A DNA stretch of 64,000 nucleotides from Chryseobacterium sp. Leaf405 (lineage in GTDB: Bacteria; Bacteroidota; Bacteroidia; Flavobacteriales; Weeksellaceae), in contig NZ_LMQN01000015.1 in NCBI RefSeq assembly GCF_001425355.1, positions 1-64,000 on the forward strand. Direction: 5' to 3'. The notes under the pieces are model-generated. The model did no database searches, had not been told where the DNA came from, and saw only the letters and a program-made list of their open reading frames with translations. Shown here piece by piece: positions 14,460 through 64,000 of this stretch (positions are counted from its first letter, which is position 1; each line of letters opens with the position of its first letter). A program made the position numbers and the translations under genes.

Positions 14460-15089
14460 TTATCCTAAATCTTTGTTAAACAAACCATTCAGTTCTGCTT
14501 CTATTTTTTCCAGAACAAATCCGAAATCCTCCGGTCTTTCAACAAAATCCAAATCATCGACTTCAATTACCAAAAGTTTTCCTTCCGTATAATTAGAAAT
14601 CCATTTTTCGTATTTCTGATTCAATTTTGAAAGATACTCAATGCTGATTGATGCCTCATATTCTCTTCCTCTTTTATAGATCTTTTTAACGAGATTCGGA
14701 ACATCAGATTTAAGATAAATCAATAAATCCGGTGCGGAAACAAAAGATTTCATCAGACTGAAAACGGATTCATAATTTTTAAAATCACGATCCGACAGAA
14801 GATTCATATCGTTTAAGTTCTCTGCAAAAATATGTGCATCTTCATAGATCGTACGATCCTGAATAATGTTTTTTCCACTTTCCCTAATCTCTTTAACCTG
14901 ACGAAATCTGCTTCCCAAAAAATAAATCTGCAAAGCAAAACTCCACTTGCTCATGTCAGCATAAAAATCCTCCAAATAAGGGTTATGATCTACATCTTCA
15001 AATTGGGCATCCCATCCGTAGTGCTTAGAAAGCATCGTAGTTAATGTCGTTTTTCCTGCTCCGATATTTCCTGTAACTGCAATATGCAT
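14460..15089 (-). CDS. Deoxynucleoside kinase
   Basis: 209 residues, cytoplasmic, of the deoxynucleoside kinase family that phosphorylates deoxynucleosides for nucleotide salvage. The P-loop is VTGNIGAGKTTL (residues 5-16). EDVDHNPYLEDFY (about 36) forms the substrate site, IIQDRTIYEDAHIF (about 80) is the DRS-like motif, and the arginine-rich lid is KKIYKRGREYE (about 135). Which base is preferred (purine or pyrimidine) cannot be read. The gene upstream (15120) lies 30 bases away on the same strand. Confidence 0.92.
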   Translation of the reverse strand: MHIAVTGNIGAGKTTLTTMLSKHYGWDAQFEDVDHNPYLEDFYADMSKWSFALQIYFLGSRFRQVKEIRESGKNIIQDRTIYEDAHIFAENLNDMNLLSDRDFKNYESVFSLMKSFVSAPDLLIYLKSDVPNLVKKIYKRGREYEASISIEYLSKLNQKYEKWISNYTEGKLLVIEVDDLDFVERPEDFGFVLEKIEAELNGLFNKDLG

Positions 15090-15119
15090 ATTTCTCTTAC
15101 CTATTTTTGATTTTAATAA

Positions 15120-16097
15120 CTAAACGCCTGCCGACTCAACTTCCGAACTTTCTTCAATCAGTTTCTGCAACGAACTTTCAGCAGGATTTTTGCTTTCAAT
15201 TTCCTGTGTTTTCTTTTCCAGTTTTTCTTCCTGACTGTCTGATTCCGAAGGTTTTTCTGCCGATTTTTCTACATCCTGTTCTGTAGCTTTTGGCCTAGCA
15301 TCAGGCTCTGTCTGCAGTTTAGTTTCTGTATTCTTTTCTAAGCTGTAAAGATAGAGTTTGTTGTCTTTCATTTCAAAATAAGAAAGCGTATTTTTATCCA
15401 CAATCTTTGCATCAGAATCCCCGAAAATCTTAACCATTTCTTTTTCCGGAATGTATTTTAAAATCGAATTATTTGTTATGACTAATATAAATTCATTTTC
15501 TCTTCTGAAACGTTTTCCATTATCGATCGGCGCTTCAAAGATTTTTTCAAATTTAAAATTATATACTCTGATAAACTTTCTCGTTAATATATACACTTTG
15601 TTTTCATACACCAAAAAATCCATAAGATCATCAAAACTATCTCCGAAAGGATAAGAATTGATCATCGTTTCGTTTCTGAAATTATACTGAATCAATCGTT
15701 TAGAACTTTCATCCAACAGCCAGATCTGCTGTAGATCTTCGGCATATACCATTTTTATAAATCCGAATTTCTGTTTAAAATCAACCTTCTGAATTTCATT
15801 CATATTTTGATCGACAAACTTTAACTCCTGAGCATTTTCAGAAAACAAAGGAACCGTTAACGGATTTTGCACAGTCTGTACTTTGAAAGGCACTGTAAAC
15901 ATCAGTTTACCAATCTGTTTCCCTAAAGAATCATACTTCGTAAAACTAAAATCTTTATTTTTATAGATATACAGATTTCCGTAATCGTCTGCAAACATAT
16001 CTTTAACTTCCTTGAGCTTTAAAGTATCAAAAGGGAGTGTTTTCTGCGCAGATAACGAACAGAAAATCAATACAAATATAAAATATAATCGTTTCAA
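15120..16097 (-). CDS. Secreted beta-propeller-like protein of unknown function
   Basis: 325 residues with a signal peptide (MKRLYFIFVLIFCSLSAQ). Residues about 25-255 show repeating beta-strand segments (MFADDYGNLYIYKNKDFSF, IWLLDESSKRLIQYNF, KVYILTRKFIRVYNF) that suggest a beta-propeller. The last 65 residues are a charged E/K/S-rich tail with low complexity. I do not recognise a named family. It probably shares a transcript with the deoxynucleoside kinase, though the functional link is unclear. Confidence 0.75.
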   Translation of the reverse strand: MKRLYFIFVLIFCSLSAQKTLPFDTLKLKEVKDMFADDYGNLYIYKNKDFSFTKYDSLGKQIGKLMFTVPFKVQTVQNPLTVPLFSENAQELKFVDQNMNEIQKVDFKQKFGFIKMVYAEDLQQIWLLDESSKRLIQYNFRNETMINSYPFGDSFDDLMDFLVYENKVYILTRKFIRVYNFKFEKIFEAPIDNGKRFRRENEFILVITNNSILKYIPEKEMVKIFGDSDAKIVDKNTLSYFEMKDNKLYLYSLEKNTETKLQTEPDARPKATEQDVEKSAEKPSESDSQEEKLEKKTQEIESKNPAESSLQKLIEESSEVESAGV

Positions 16098-56310: not shown

Positions 56311-57525
56311 TTATTTTTTTTGTTGGTTTTGTGAATCTTTCAGTTGTTTTTCGTCGATTAAAAAGACGTAAGAATTGTATTTCAATTTTGCTTTGTTCTC
56401 TTTGATCAGGTTGGCAATAGATTTAGATGTTGATGTAAACAGGCTGGATCCAATGCTTGAGAAAAATCCTTTTCCGCCCATATCCATCTGAGTTCCTTGT
56501 ACTGAGTTACTTCCCATTTCCCTCATCATATCTCTGAAAACACTTTGCGGAACATACAATCCCTTCATACCGTCAACATCATAAATCGAAAGATTGACAG
56601 GATAGATTTCTCCTTTTGTGAATACAGATACAATATTGAGATTGACTCTCTGCATTGAAAATCCTGAGATTTGTCCGTATAATATCGAACCTATGATTAT
56701 TTTTTTATTCCCGACAAAGATGTCTTCCAACAATCGGAACCTAATCCGGCTTCCTAAAAATCCTTTGTTGTTTTCGTCAATGACCGCTTTGATAAAGCTG
56801 TTTTCTTTCTCCTTATAGAAAGCATTGAAACCACTGTTGATTCCGGATTTGCTCACATTGAAAGTTGAATTAAGAAAATCTTCCATTTTCTCTTTACTGG
56901 ACTTCAGTTTTTGTTCTGCTGCGAGTTTACTTTGGTACTCAGGATCACGGGATTTTTCTAAAGAATCCATAACGAGCATTTGTTCTTTCAGATATTTTAC
57001 AGGGTCTGGTTGGACACTTTGTGTCTTTTCTTTTGGTGTATCAGCGTATTTATCTTCTTGGTTTCCGTAAGATTTGTCATTCAGCATTTTAATGATTTCT
57101 GAAGACCTGTTGTAATCTTTGTCATCCCTCTGTGATTGATTTGGTTTGTAATACGAGGATTGATTTTCTTTTGCCTGGTATCTGTTTTGTCTTCCGTTTT
57201 CTGCTTTTAAGGAGTCAATTTTTCTTTTTTGGTCCAGTGACAATTGGTCATCATAGTTCAATAAACTATCTTCTTCTTTGTCTAATCCACCAAGCATCGT
57301 TCTGTTATCCTCTTTTTTGAAAAAAGCATCATACGCATCATTTTTGGTCATAATGGAATCCTGCGTATCGCCCAGTGAAAGAGACAATTCTTTTGGTTTA
57401 TCTTTTTCAGACGTGTCTTCTTTGACAAACTGCGCTCCTACATAACCGAAAAGAAAAAGAAACGGTAAAGCCAGAAGTGGCAAAACATATTTTTTTTCTT
57501 TAAAATTTATTTTTTTAATGTCCAT
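56311..57525 (-). CDS. traM: Conjugative transposon protein TraM (VirB10-like)
   Basis: 404 residues. A short cytoplasmic N-terminus with many lysines, one membrane segment (VLPLLALPFLFLFGYVGAQF), a long hydrophilic periplasmic region rich in Gln/Asp/Lys (about 45-210) and a C-terminal TraM domain (IRFRLLEDIFVGNKKIIIGS, about 257; QGTQMDMGGKGFFSSIGSSL). VirB10-like proteins connect inner and outer membrane parts of the channel. Overlaps the TraL-like gene by 11 bases and is followed closely by traN. Confidence 0.9.
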   Translation of the reverse strand: MDIKKINFKEKKYVLPLLALPFLFLFGYVGAQFVKEDTSEKDKPKELSLSLGDTQDSIMTKNDAYDAFFKKEDNRTMLGGLDKEEDSLLNYDDQLSLDQKRKIDSLKAENGRQNRYQAKENQSSYYKPNQSQRDDKDYNRSSEIIKMLNDKSYGNQEDKYADTPKEKTQSVQPDPVKYLKEQMLVMDSLEKSRDPEYQSKLAAEQKLKSSKEKMEDFLNSTFNVSKSGINSGFNAFYKEKENSFIKAVIDENNKGFLGSRIRFRLLEDIFVGNKKIIIGSILYGQISGFSMQRVNLNIVSVFTKGEIYPVNLSIYDVDGMKGLYVPQSVFRDMMREMGSNSVQGTQMDMGGKGFFSSIGSSLFTSTSKSIANLIKENKAKLKYNSYVFLIDEKQLKDSQNQQKK

Positions 57526-60574: not shown

Positions 60575-61243
60575 TTAATTAAAGATGTGGTTGTATTTAG
60601 TGATGATGTCGCCAACAATAGCTTTGTCGATATTGATGTAATTGCGGAGAACAGGAACCTGATACAGATAAGGGATCTTCTTGGCATTCTCTAATCGGAG
60701 ATTGATGTATAAAATATTCCCATTGATATTTCTTACCCTTGTAAAAATCTTTTCAATCAGCATTTCCCTATCCATTGCATCCATCAGAAAGTCTTTGTCT
60801 TCATTGAGAATATCCTGAGTAACTTCCTGTTGAAGCTTTATCGTTTGCTTCCCGATTTCTATGTAGTATTTTGAAATGAGTACCGAATATTCAGGATGCT
60901 GTGCTGATAAATCCAGCATTTTATTGGAGTTCGTTACTATTTTTCCCAAATATTGATAGAGATAAATAAGTTTTTTGCTCTGGGTCAGGGCTGAATTCAC
61001 ATTTTTTAGTTGTTGATAGATGTATTCCTGAATCGCAATGATTTGCGTTACCTTATTGTTGATGTCATCATACAATTCTTTTTGCTTTTCATAGGAATCC
61101 AAAAAAGCCTGTTCGCTTCCTAATCGAACGCCGTGATTTACGGTGATCTGCGAAAGGAGTTTATCATTAATGACTATTTGCTGGCTTTTTACAGATGCAA
61201 CAGAGAAGAATAAAACTCCGAAAAGAAATATTTTTTTGCTCAT
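60575..61243 (-). CDS. Secreted tra protein, paralogue A of three
   Basis: 222 residues, signal peptide ending near VKSQ. Long helices, with a motif near the C-terminus, YINIDKAIVGDIITKYN, that recurs in the next two genes upstream (61292 and 62025). Internal pattern: QHPEYSVLISKYYIEIGKQ (about 110) corresponds to EHPEYAIFGVKASQK in paralogue C. Periplasmic, perhaps a VirB5/TrbJ-like pilus or channel part; this is inferred from place, signal peptide and helical make-up. Confidence 0.75.
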   Translation of the reverse strand: MSKKIFLFGVLFFSVASVKSQQIVINDKLLSQITVNHGVRLGSEQAFLDSYEKQKELYDDINNKVTQIIAIQEYIYQQLKNVNSALTQSKKLIYLYQYLGKIVTNSNKMLDLSAQHPEYSVLISKYYIEIGKQTIKLQQEVTQDILNEDKDFLMDAMDREMLIEKIFTRVRNINGNILYINLRLENAKKIPYLYQVPVLRNYINIDKAIVGDIITKYNHIFN

Positions 61244-61291: not shown

Positions 61292-62014
61292 TTAAAAAGA
61301 TTTGATGTTATCCATGATGCTTTCAACTACTTGCTTATCTCTATTGACATAATATTGAAAGGCTCTTTTATTGCGTTTTACTTTGGCTTTAATATCCCTT
61401 ATCTTCAAAAGCATATGCGTAGAATTCCTGCTCAATGTTTTTACTTCACCCAAGGCATAGTCTAATAATACTTTACGTTCTGATTTTTCCATTTGGTTGA
61501 TGGCTCCGTAAGACAAAATGATCCCGGTTACAAGCCGTGTTACCATTTGCAAATCATCAACAAACTGAACCTGAGAAGGCAAAACGGCTATAATTGGATA
61601 AGGAGCATCGTTTATTTCATTGATAATGGCAGATTGATTGTTTGTTATTTTCGTTATTTCCCTGCTCATTGCTATTCCGGTGGGTATCGCTTGAATGGCA
61701 AATGAAACAATTCGCAATCTGTCCTGAACTTTGGTAATTTTTTCTTTAAAATTGTTCCATTGGTTTCTATTGAACGTTTCTACTGTGGCATTCGCAATTT
61801 GTTTTTGCCTCATTTCTTTTTGCCTGTCGTGTTCTTTCATCGTGGCATTGATTTCTATATCCATCATCGGAAATGATACATTTTCCTGTTGCCACGCTGG
61901 TGTAGAACCACCACCTGAAGAAGTTATTATCACATATACCGTCGGAATAAGCAAACCCATAACAATTTTCCTTTTGCCTCCATAAATTCGGCGAATCTTG
62001 TTTTTCGATTTCAT
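61292..62014 (-). CDS. Membrane-anchored tra protein, paralogue B of three
   Basis: 240 residues from the ATG at 62014, which leaves a 10-base gap; the longer frame from 62095 would overlap the upstream gene by 71 bases and add lysine-rich residues without purpose. One N-terminal membrane segment (IVMGLLIPTVYVIITSSGGG) anchors it. The helical body ends with YYVNRDKQVVESIMDNIKSF, the same ending as in the two flanking genes. It shows the signal-to-anchor difference: this copy keeps a membrane anchor, the others have cleavable signals. Confidence 0.75.
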   Translation of the reverse strand: MKSKNKIRRIYGGKRKIVMGLLIPTVYVIITSSGGGSTPAWQQENVSFPMMDIEINATMKEHDRQKEMRQKQIANATVETFNRNQWNNFKEKITKVQDRLRIVSFAIQAIPTGIAMSREITKITNNQSAIINEINDAPYPIIAVLPSQVQFVDDLQMVTRLVTGIILSYGAINQMEKSERKVLLDYALGEVKTLSRNSTHMLLKIRDIKAKVKRNKRAFQYYVNRDKQVVESIMDNIKSF

Positions 62015-62024
62015 CTTTTTGCTC

Positions 62025-62678
62025 TTAAAAATTCTTTTTATATCGATCCATAATATTTTCAACAATCGCTTTATCTGTATTGATGTAGCCTGCAAACGGA
62101 TTGATGGAATTCCAGAACCCCAATCGGTTGGCTTTTTCCAGTCGTAATTTTATCGCCAAAAGCCAAAGCTTCAGATTTTTGACATTACCGGAAATATTAT
62201 GCAGAATTTTGTATCGGTCTCCCGCAGTAGCCAGATTGAGTTCTCCGGAGGCGAGAATATCTGATACATCGGTAACGATTTTCAAACTTTGCTCATAGGT
62301 TTTTTGTGAAGCCTTGACTCCAAAAATGGCATACTCCGGATGTTCTGATGCTAATTGTACTACTTGTGAGGAATAAGCATAACATTTATTGAGCTCAGAG
62401 TAGATTTCTTGTGCCTGAATTCCGTTTTGTAATGTGCCGGAAACCTCTTTTAAACCCTTCAGAATTTTATTTTGAATATCATTGGCTGCTACCATCTGTG
62501 TTCCAACCCACGTTTGTGCGTCCTTTAATTTTGAAGTTTCTTCTATGACTTCATTTTGTTTGGCTTTTAGATTTTCAGAATACAGGATCATTGCCGCCGT
62601 TACCGTTGGGTCTATGTAGGTGTTTTGCGAATAAAGGAAACTTCCAAAACCTAAAAATAAAATGCTAAACTTTTTCAT
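62025..62678 (-). CDS. Secreted tra protein, paralogue C of three
   Basis: 217 residues, signal peptide MKKFSILFLGFGSFLYSQ. Helical, contains ASEHPEYAIFGVKASQKTYE (about 108) and ends GYINTDKAIVENIMDRYKKNF-like, both shared with paralogue A. It starts 14 bases inside the end of the TraG-type gene, so translation is likely coupled. Place right after the VirB4-type ATPase is where CTnDOT-type systems have TraH/TraI and P-type systems TrbJ (VirB5). Confidence 0.77.
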   Translation of the reverse strand: MKKFSILFLGFGSFLYSQNTYIDPTVTAAMILYSENLKAKQNEVIEETSKLKDAQTWVGTQMVAANDIQNKILKGLKEVSGTLQNGIQAQEIYSELNKCYAYSSQVVQLASEHPEYAIFGVKASQKTYEQSLKIVTDVSDILASGELNLATAGDRYKILHNISGNVKNLKLWLLAIKLRLEKANRLGFWNSINPFAGYINTDKAIVENIMDRYKKNF

Positions 62679-64000
62679 ATTGTTGTTTATTGATTAATTC
62701 TGAAAAGATGATTTGGCGGTCTTCTAATTCCTGTGAGATGATTTTGAAAACATTCTTCCCTTTGTGTTCTTTTTTCATCCTTCTGTAGAAAGAATTGATT
62801 TTATCATCCAATGGATTTTGATATAAATTCACGAGTGACACCAAGTTTTCGAGGCTGTCTCCGAAGATTTTCAAATCACTAACTATTCTGCGCAACGCTT
62901 CATCATAGTCTCCGTATTGGTGCACATAATATTCAACTGCCGATTTTTCCGGTTTTTCTGTAGTGTAGGTGAGATATTGTTCAAGCGAAACTTCATTTCC
63001 ATACACTTCTCCCTTAGAACCTCTCTTCAGGTAAAATTCTTTAAATCGGCTTCTACCGAATTTATTGTTGAGATTATTGATGGTGAAAATCTTGTTTTGC
63101 TCTACTTTATTAAGTGAAAGCAATGAGGCGATCTTATCAAAATTATCTTTGAACTTCGTCTGGTCAAGCAATATTAAAGTGTCCGAATTATTGATAATGG
63201 AATCTTTTACCACCGCATTGCCAATAATGTCATCCAGTTCCTGCGTTACCACCACCGCTTCTCCCCAAAATTTCCTCACTGTTTTATATAAATAAAGAAT
63301 GTATCCACCCATCAATTTACTAGCAATGGCCTTCCAGGCTTCTTCGATGATGAGTGCTTTTCTGCGGTCTTTTCTAAGCCTCATTTTCTGAATGAAAGTA
63401 TCCATAATAATGAGCGTTACAATCGGAAAGAGTTTGGGATTATCTTTTACGTTGTCAATTTCAAAAACGATGAATGTTTCATCAAAAAGCGTGTTGTCTG
63501 CACTTTCATTTAAAGTGGTTCCGTACCTCCCTCCTTTGTAAAAGTCTTTTAATACAAAGAGAAATGTTCTCAGATTGAACTCCTTTTCAGTGATTCTGTG
63601 CTTTCGGTTGTTTAAATAAAGGGGGAGAAATTGATCGCAATAATCATAAAATCCATTAAAGGATAGTTCTTTCGTTTCTAATTTTTCCTCTAATTCGATA
63701 ATTTTCTTGATAATGGCTTTTCTAAAGGAACTGTACCAATCTTCAGGCGTTTTGGGTTGTTTGATAATTTCATTTGATTTTATAAGAATCAATTGGGTTT
63801 CATTATAGATTTTTCTTTTTTCTTCATCATTCAAAGTTTCATAAGCTTCATAAACTTTGTAAAATTGTTCACTGTCATATTCGGGATTATTAACATTCTT
63901 ATCGGGATGATAAAATTTCAACAACTTTCTTCCCGCATCTTTCACTTCGTCAGAACTTGCATCGAAGGCAATTCCCAAAACATCATAGTAAGTATGTTTA
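62665..64000 (-). CDS. traG: TraG/VirB4-type conjugation ATPase with J domain (partial; start outside window)
   Basis: The frame is open to the window edge, so the N-terminal part is missing. At the edge it reads KHTYYDVLGIAFD, then KFYHPDKN (HPD at 63901-63909) and FYKVYEAYETLNDEEKRK: a full DnaJ J domain within about 63800-63990. No stop lies between it and the VirB4 half: NGFYDYCDQFLPLYL, FLFVLKDFYKGGRYG, Walker B KALIIEEAWKAIASKLMGG (about 63329-63362), VVVTQELDDIIGNAVVKDS, IINNSDTLILLDQ, VSLEQYLTYTT. Walker A must lie to the right. A TTG at 63978 could start a shorter frame, but the J domain begins before it. Powers assembly and transfer. Confidence 0.88.
   Translation of the reverse strand, partial: KHTYYDVLGIAFDASSDEVKDAGRKLLKFYHPDKNVNNPEYDSEQFYKVYEAYETLNDEEKRKIYNETQLILIKSNEIIKQPKTPEDWYSSFRKAIIKKIIELEEKLETKELSFNGFYDYCDQFLPLYLNNRKHRITEKEFNLRTFLFVLKDFYKGGRYGTTLNESADNTLFDETFIVFEIDNVKDNPKLFPIVTLIIMDTFIQKMRLRKDRRKALIIEEAWKAIASKLMGGYILYLYKTVRKFWGEAVVVTQELDDIIGNAVVKDSIINNSDTLILLDQTKFKDNFDKIASLLSLNKVEQNKIFTINNLNNKFGRSRFKEFYLKRGSKGEVYGNEVSLEQYLTYTTEKPEKSAVEYYVHQYGDYDEALRRIVSDLKIFGDSLENLVSLVNLYQNPLDDKINSFYRRMKKEHKGKNVFKIISQELEDRQIIFSELINKQQYEKV

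Follow-up and report, generated by a model that had tools for sequence, protein, structure and literature searches.

A J domain inserted between the Walker motifs of a TraG/VirB4-type conjugation ATPase from Chryseobacterium, and its possible use of host DnaK

J domains bind Hsp70 chaperones in their ATP state and trigger hydrolysis. At the right-hand end of a 64,000-nucleotide stretch of the genome of Chryseobacterium sp. Leaf405 (contig NZ_LMQN01000015.1; hereafter the window), signatures of such a domain occur in a gene for conjugative DNA transfer, which raises the questions of how the domain is built into the transfer ATPase, how widely the arrangement occurs and what a motor of this kind might gain from it. 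An earlier note on this DNA, made from the letters alone, had placed the J-domain signatures and the Walker B half of a VirB4-type ATPase in one minus-strand frame, had suspected that the domain interrupts the ATPase between Walker A and Walker B, and had proposed that the domain recruits DnaK. We examined these claims by profile searches, genome scans, structure prediction and comparison of relatives.

Anatomy of the gene and its transfer operon

The frame on the minus strand at 62665-63999 stays open as far as the edge of the window and holds YYDVLGI, YHPDKN, FYKVYEAYETLNDEEKRK, ALIIEEAWKAIA and VVVTQELDDI without interruption, as the note had read it. Beyond position 64000 the same frame remains stop-free up to an ATG at position 65733 of the contig, giving an open reading frame of 1022 aa, and the assembled sequence has neither a stop codon or frameshift between J domain and ATPase nor a separate upstream gene. 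In a Pfam search of the 1022-aa protein, DnaJ (PF00226) matched aa 581-644 with 66 bits (cut-off 27.8; E 3.2e-18) and P-loop_TraG (PF19044) matched with 435 bits (cut-off 25.8) split over two stretches, while the NCBIfam model for TraG family conjugative transposon ATPases (TIGR03783) scored 474.5 bits (cut-off 261.55). Judged by these profiles, the protein is a TraG/VirB4-type ATPase of a Bacteroidota conjugation system. Walker A (GPSGSGKS) begins at aa 431, HPD at 609 and Walker B (ALIIEEAW) at 793, all in one frame. These positions confirm, at the level of sequence, that the J domain is inserted internally, with Walker A before it and Walker B after it. A simple N-terminal fusion was rejected because Walker A lies upstream of the J domain. 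The features are as follows.

62665-63999, minus strand: TraG/VirB4-type ATPase, C-terminal 444 residues (aa 579-1022 of 1022); PF19044, TIGR03783
Outside the window, to 65733, minus strand: remainder of the traG gene, holding Walker A (aa 431-438)
63802-63993, minus strand: J domain, aa 581-644, with helix I (YYDVLGI), helix II, HPD loop, helix III and helix IV; PF00226, AlphaFold fragment
63901-63909, minus strand: HPD triad, aa 609-611; from sequence, conserved in relatives
63667-63801, minus strand: helical linker forming the C-terminal part of the insert, aa 645-689, the core resuming at LSFNGFY (aa 690); alignments, model helices and dN/dS of aa 646-688
63334-63357, minus strand: Walker B segment ALIIEEAW, aa 793-800
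62025-62678, minus strand: next transfer-operon gene after traG; no Pfam match, hypothetical-protein gene at the same place in Chryseobacterium plasmid NZ_CP139138
58503-59735, minus strand: VirB6/TraJ-like gene of the transfer operon; TrbL/VirB6 (PF04610) 25.6 bits, slightly below the cut-off of 25.9
56311-57525, minus strand: TraM gene of the transfer operon; PF12508, 121 bits
55437-56306, minus strand: TraN-like gene (DUF4138) of the transfer operon; PF13595, 151 bits, the gene after traM being named traN in locus L007

Genes for DUF4134, a relaxase, TraM and DUF4138 exceed their Pfam cut-offs in this operon and the gene order resembles that of L007; DUF4133 (22.9 bits, cut-off 25.2) and the VirB6-like match fall below theirs. 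No match to the VirB11-type ATPase/T2SSE profile (PF00437) exceeded the Pfam cut-off anywhere in the Leaf405 genome, and the conjugation system of the window appears to be one without VirB11; from this genome alone we draw no specific link between that and the J domain. Three consecutive minus-strand genes (60575-61243, 61292-62095 and 62025-62678) encode products whose ends look similar by eye (DKAIVGDIITKYNHIF, DKQVVESIMDNIKSF and DKAIVENIMDRYKKNF); the two of them scanned against Pfam gave no match, and they are possibly copies of a duplicated component of the channel or pilus. On the right-hand side of the transfer region, a resolvase-like open reading frame (L006:14273-14848, minus) and a Tn3-transposase-like one (14980-15999, plus), both recognized by eye, may indicate where the element ends.

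A run of ten T lies just outside the window on the minus strand (64582-64591 of the contig, L006:4583-4592), upstream of Walker A, where it encodes FFF within aa 381-384 of TraG. The run is uninterrupted in 74 of 77 distinct traG copies (the HPD-less relative L151, described below, counted), and every one of the 228 Phe codons at this place is TTT, compared with 3088 of 4816 elsewhere in traG. It is also present in the Mucilaginibacter traG and absent from the Bacteroides, Phocaeicola and Pontibacter copies. Most copies are intact; at 7 of the 64 places found in the genus (see below) the open frame of traG is just 648-678 aa long, and in all six broken copies that were read (L026, L063, L068, L095, L106 and L123, the last being the same gene as L069) the frame breaks at the run. 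The tract may be a site of slippage, a phase-variation switch, a simple mutation hot spot, or a source of sequencing error in the broken copies.

Distribution and ancestry of the insert

Genome scans with a profile of the insert plus its flanks (A2) returned 64 full-span places in 52 of the genus's 173 genomes (that of the window included), and a further 50 genomes of other genera were positive in a 296-genome sample of the family (counted from the result table). The arrangement is thus recurrent. At E <= 1e-22, the samples of order, class and phylum held 13, 2 and 3 positives among 246, 295 and 296 genomes, respectively, all of them belonging to the family of the window's genome, so that no wide spread through the phylum was found in these three samples; in a sample of another family (f30) none of 245 genomes was positive at E <= 1e-19, a scan with no internal positive, unlike the other three. 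The zero counts outside the family are to be read as sample results because a Sphingobacterium plasmid, pWB8, is an exception. In PLSDB, 2998 records match the whole TraG and two do so at 60% identity or more, both with the J domain; among seven plasmid TraGs inspected, J was present in two (a Chryseobacterium plasmid and Sphingobacterium faecium pWB8) and absent from five. An A2 scan of IMG/VR virus contigs gave no relative.

For closer comparison we used 80 named loci (80 of 89 relatives). They had been selected by two peptide patterns located elsewhere than in the J domain, and a J-bearing protein served as the tblastn query by which they were ranked. Their genera include Chryseobacterium, Epilithonimonas, Kaistella, Cloacibacterium, Elizabethkingia, Empedobacter, Halpernia, Frigoriflavimonas and Moheibacter, among others. 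An artefact, whether an assembly error, a frameshift or a chance match, was rejected on the strength of the stop-free frame, the strong profile score and the recurrence of the same insert in these 80 loci and in two plasmids, and we regard its probability as negligible.

Alignment with the five plasmid TraGs lacking a DnaJ match places the insert at about aa 541-688, between SYYHQYF and LSFNGFY, both flanks of which align well. We take this region, by analogy with VirB4 and VirD4 proteins, to be the all-alpha part of the ATPase domain. At the same site the Pontibacter and Pedobacter TraGs have 6-7 residues and 15 TraGs from a phylum sample (TraG being found in 22 of its 198 genomes) have 3-6, while the Mucilaginibacter, Phocaeicola and Bacteroides fragilis plasmid TraGs (L009-L011) hold about 110 residues, largely helix-like by eye and without a J match. 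Because different TraGs carry a short loop, a helical stretch or a J domain here, the site is, on this alignment, a tolerant loop that has been variously filled. The TraG of the B. fragilis plasmid pBF9343 (TIGR03783, PF19044) illustrates the point, as it shares with the Chryseobacterium protein the P-loop family over cut-off, the Walker A and B segments, and DUF4134 and DUF4133 genes directly upstream, but has about 110 helical residues without a J match in place of the J insert.

In a tree of 40 TraGs built with the insert removed, the 19 J-bearing proteins formed one group (support 97/99), with the long-branched L151 as its sister, followed by TraGs of the Mucilaginibacter/Pedobacter type. 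The J-bearing rows and L151 were hand-picked, and of 28 further loci (L154-L181) the 15 with a pattern-fitting frame were included and the rest omitted; according to a warning of the tree program, L151 and certain other rows have long branches, which makes their placement unsure. Since the J-bearing TraGs group together, a single gain of the J domain in TraG is the simplest reading of the tree. The other 20 TraGs on the tree have no J domain, so the domain would be dispensable for TraGs in general. L151 itself (contig C15 of genome G193, same family) carries an insert with a helix-I-like YYEVLGI and a helix-IV-like KRAYDK, a shorter middle and no HPD; its DnaJ match in Pfam reaches only 13 bits, below the cut-off, and it may be either a degenerate J domain or another helical insert.

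Fold, conservation and the host DnaK

A whole-protein AlphaFold model built with 48 relatives was poor (pLDDT 54, pTM 0.37). For the fold search we used a fragment, aa 488-745 of L071, a relative 96% identical to the window protein, for which AlphaFold predicted the J region with a pLDDT of 73-88 per ten-residue block and helices in the C-terminal linker. In structural alignment this fragment best matched a human DnaJ-kinase chimera (Z 11.8) and superimposed on the DnaK-bound J domain 5nro_B with Z 9.2 and 1.6 Å across 62 residues; 47 of the 50 matches listed had Z of at least 7 and were mostly named J domains or Hsp40s, although a Z below about 13 can reflect a common arrangement of helical proteins and the non-J part of the fragment is barely tested by this alignment. 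Foldseek gave no match for the fragment at E < 0.001 (best E 4.3e-3). The predicted fragment has a J fold, and the assignment rests on the profile score together with the Z-scored structural alignment.

Conservation was assessed in 76 distinct full-length proteins, namely 71 from the named loci after removal of identical copies together with L006, L007, L008, L152 and L153; L151 was excluded, and L095, L097, L106 and L123 were omitted, having no full-length open frame that fits the pattern (L097 is without the usual Walker A string). HPD is invariant in all 76, as are Y583, L586, R602, A630, Y631, L634, R640 and Y643, while the linkers drift. In all, 131 of 148 insert columns vary, and invariant columns number 11 of 67 in the J domain against 6 of 81 in the linkers. 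Pairwise identity of the J domain is as low as 33% among distinct relatives, and PF00226 was matched at E <= 0.001 by 69 of 69 distinct fragments in a Pfam scan. From 135-138 pairs, which are non-independent and have an overall dS of 0.15-0.9, dN/dS was 0.032 in the J domain compared with 0.083 and 0.089 in the two linkers; the segment around Walker B gave 0.010, the N-terminal part 0.036 and the C-terminal tail 0.130. Purifying selection acts on the J domain, and more strongly than on the linkers.

The residues expected to touch DnaK are retained in part. A bacterial Hsp70 review (PMC8215388) names DnaJ R22, K26, R27, K48 and K51 as contacts with DnaK, and lists eight DnaK residues that contact the J domain. 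The helix-II positions equal to R22, K26 and R27 are Lys or Arg in 76, 76 and 74 of the 76 proteins, whereas those equal to K48 and K51 in helix III are basic in none and are mostly Tyr or Phe; basic residues in helix III are helpful for J-domain proteins, not defining. The host genome encodes one full-length DnaK, the other PF00012 match being of 35 bits over 75 profile positions in a 377-aa frame. Aligned at the eight contact residues, this DnaK is identical at R167, E217, Q378, L391, P419 and D477, has a conservative change to Asp at E206, and has a deletion where D211 would lie.

Possible roles of the J domain in conjugation

Recruitment of DnaK, as the note had proposed, is thus favoured by the invariant HPD, the helix-II basic patch, purifying selection, the J fold of the fragment model and a full-length host DnaK with most of its J-contact residues, and is weakened by the change of two basic contact positions and by one divergent relative without HPD. 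On balance we think it probable that TraG, through a working J domain, holds host DnaK at the transfer ATPase. The domain would project from the loop region that separates the two Walker motifs and, if HPD is exposed in the assembled ring, bind host DnaK in its ATP state, HPD would trigger ATP hydrolysis, and DnaK would be clamped onto whichever polypeptide sits at the ATPase. This reading draws on the ability of J domains to trigger Hsp70 hydrolysis and on what is reported of relaxases and VirB4. According to passages of PMC5826034, relaxases must unfold to pass conjugative type IV secretion systems, the responsible enzyme "remains unclear", and VirB4, which is also required for pilus assembly, is one of three ATPases that may do it. 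The client would then be a protein entering or building the channel, with unfolding or threading of the relaxase placed somewhat ahead of channel or pilus assembly.

A more specific version, which we hold to be speculative and rather doubtful, is that J-bearing subunits of the TraG ring deliver DnaK to the incoming relaxase-DNA and that DnaK unfolds the relaxase, serving in the donor as an additional motor; by analogy, this would be an export-direction prokaryotic counterpart of Sec63-BiP and Pam18-mtHsp70, in a system without VirB11. The J domain could instead serve the machine itself, with DnaK folding, assembling, disassembling or unjamming the TraG ring or neighbouring channel proteins. 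This is a sub-case of DnaK recruitment, so that its odds overlap with those of the main reading, and we rate it as possible if somewhat unlikely: an insert within the ATPase makes TraG the nearest client, and Hsp70 takes apart complexes such as RepE dimers and lambda O-P-DnaB (PMC8215388), while the role of VirB4 in pilus assembly noted above (PMC5826034) points the same way, but the J domain is absent from the TraGs of other lineages.

Alternatively, the insert may be a structural or protein-docking module that has lost the use of Hsp70 and keeps HPD for folding or for another partner, as would suit the helical non-J inserts at the same site in the Mucilaginibacter and Bacteroides/Phocaeicola TraGs, the J-like insert without HPD in G193, and the non-basic residues at two of the five basic DnaK-contact positions. 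HPD lies in an exposed loop and is not known to be required for folding of the domain; the invariance of HPD within an insert so variable elsewhere, and the retention of the helix-II basic patch, argue against a pure docking role, which we consider unlikely. A sensor that couples transfer to the free DnaK pool under stress, or a decoy that ties up or imitates host DnaJ, for instance as a means of weakening a defence whose sensing runs via DnaJ, has precedents in the literature, in that a bacterial NLR-related protein senses phage by way of DnaJ (PMC12169576) and a J-domain protein encoded by a phage interacts with DnaK (PMC3486835); nothing in the locus points to it, however, and a decoy needs no place inside a motor, which makes this very improbable. 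Tethering of DnaK by TraG is the reading we prefer.

Class C J-domain proteins, which have a J domain only and no G/F or zinc region, include Sec63, Pam18 and DjlA, and in Sec63 and Pam18 the J domain brings Hsp70 to a translocation channel. Sec63 was among the sequence matches to the window J domain. The TraG described here is like these proteins in joining a J domain to an unrelated functional module, but differs in the site of the J domain, which is enclosed by the P-loop domain of an ATPase that a mobile element uses for DNA transfer. The J-domain protein of a T4-related phage is likewise brought by a mobile element and interacts with the host DnaK in that system (PMC3486835), but is a separate protein outside any transfer motor. 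VirB4/TrwK (PDB 7o41 and relatives) is a distant sequence match to aa 730-860, the Walker B half, a match that excludes the J region; the R388 system uses VirB11 as well, for which the Leaf405 genome gave no match over the cut-off.

TraG and the J domain are each known, and we found no description of their combination in a motor domain in the open-access literature, a scope that leaves most subscription papers and bioRxiv outside. No TraG-J fusion is described in passages of PMC10434189, PMC3756968 and PMC5714932; the terms DnaJ, J domain and DnaK are absent from a 2025 review of type IV secretion (PMC12857230), and TraG, VirB4 and conjugation from the Hsp70 review (PMC8215388). The architecture may well be already visible in the domain annotation of databases.

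For one common group of mobile elements, a J-bearing transfer ATPase would offer a natural answer to the question, posed in passages of PMC5826034, of how relaxases are unfolded. The arrangement suggests that mobile elements borrow a host chaperone for DNA transfer and, if this is true, a conjugative element can depend on the chaperone pool of its donor. Among the Weeksellaceae are opportunists as well as environmental carriers of resistance, so that the biology of their transfer machines is of practical use.
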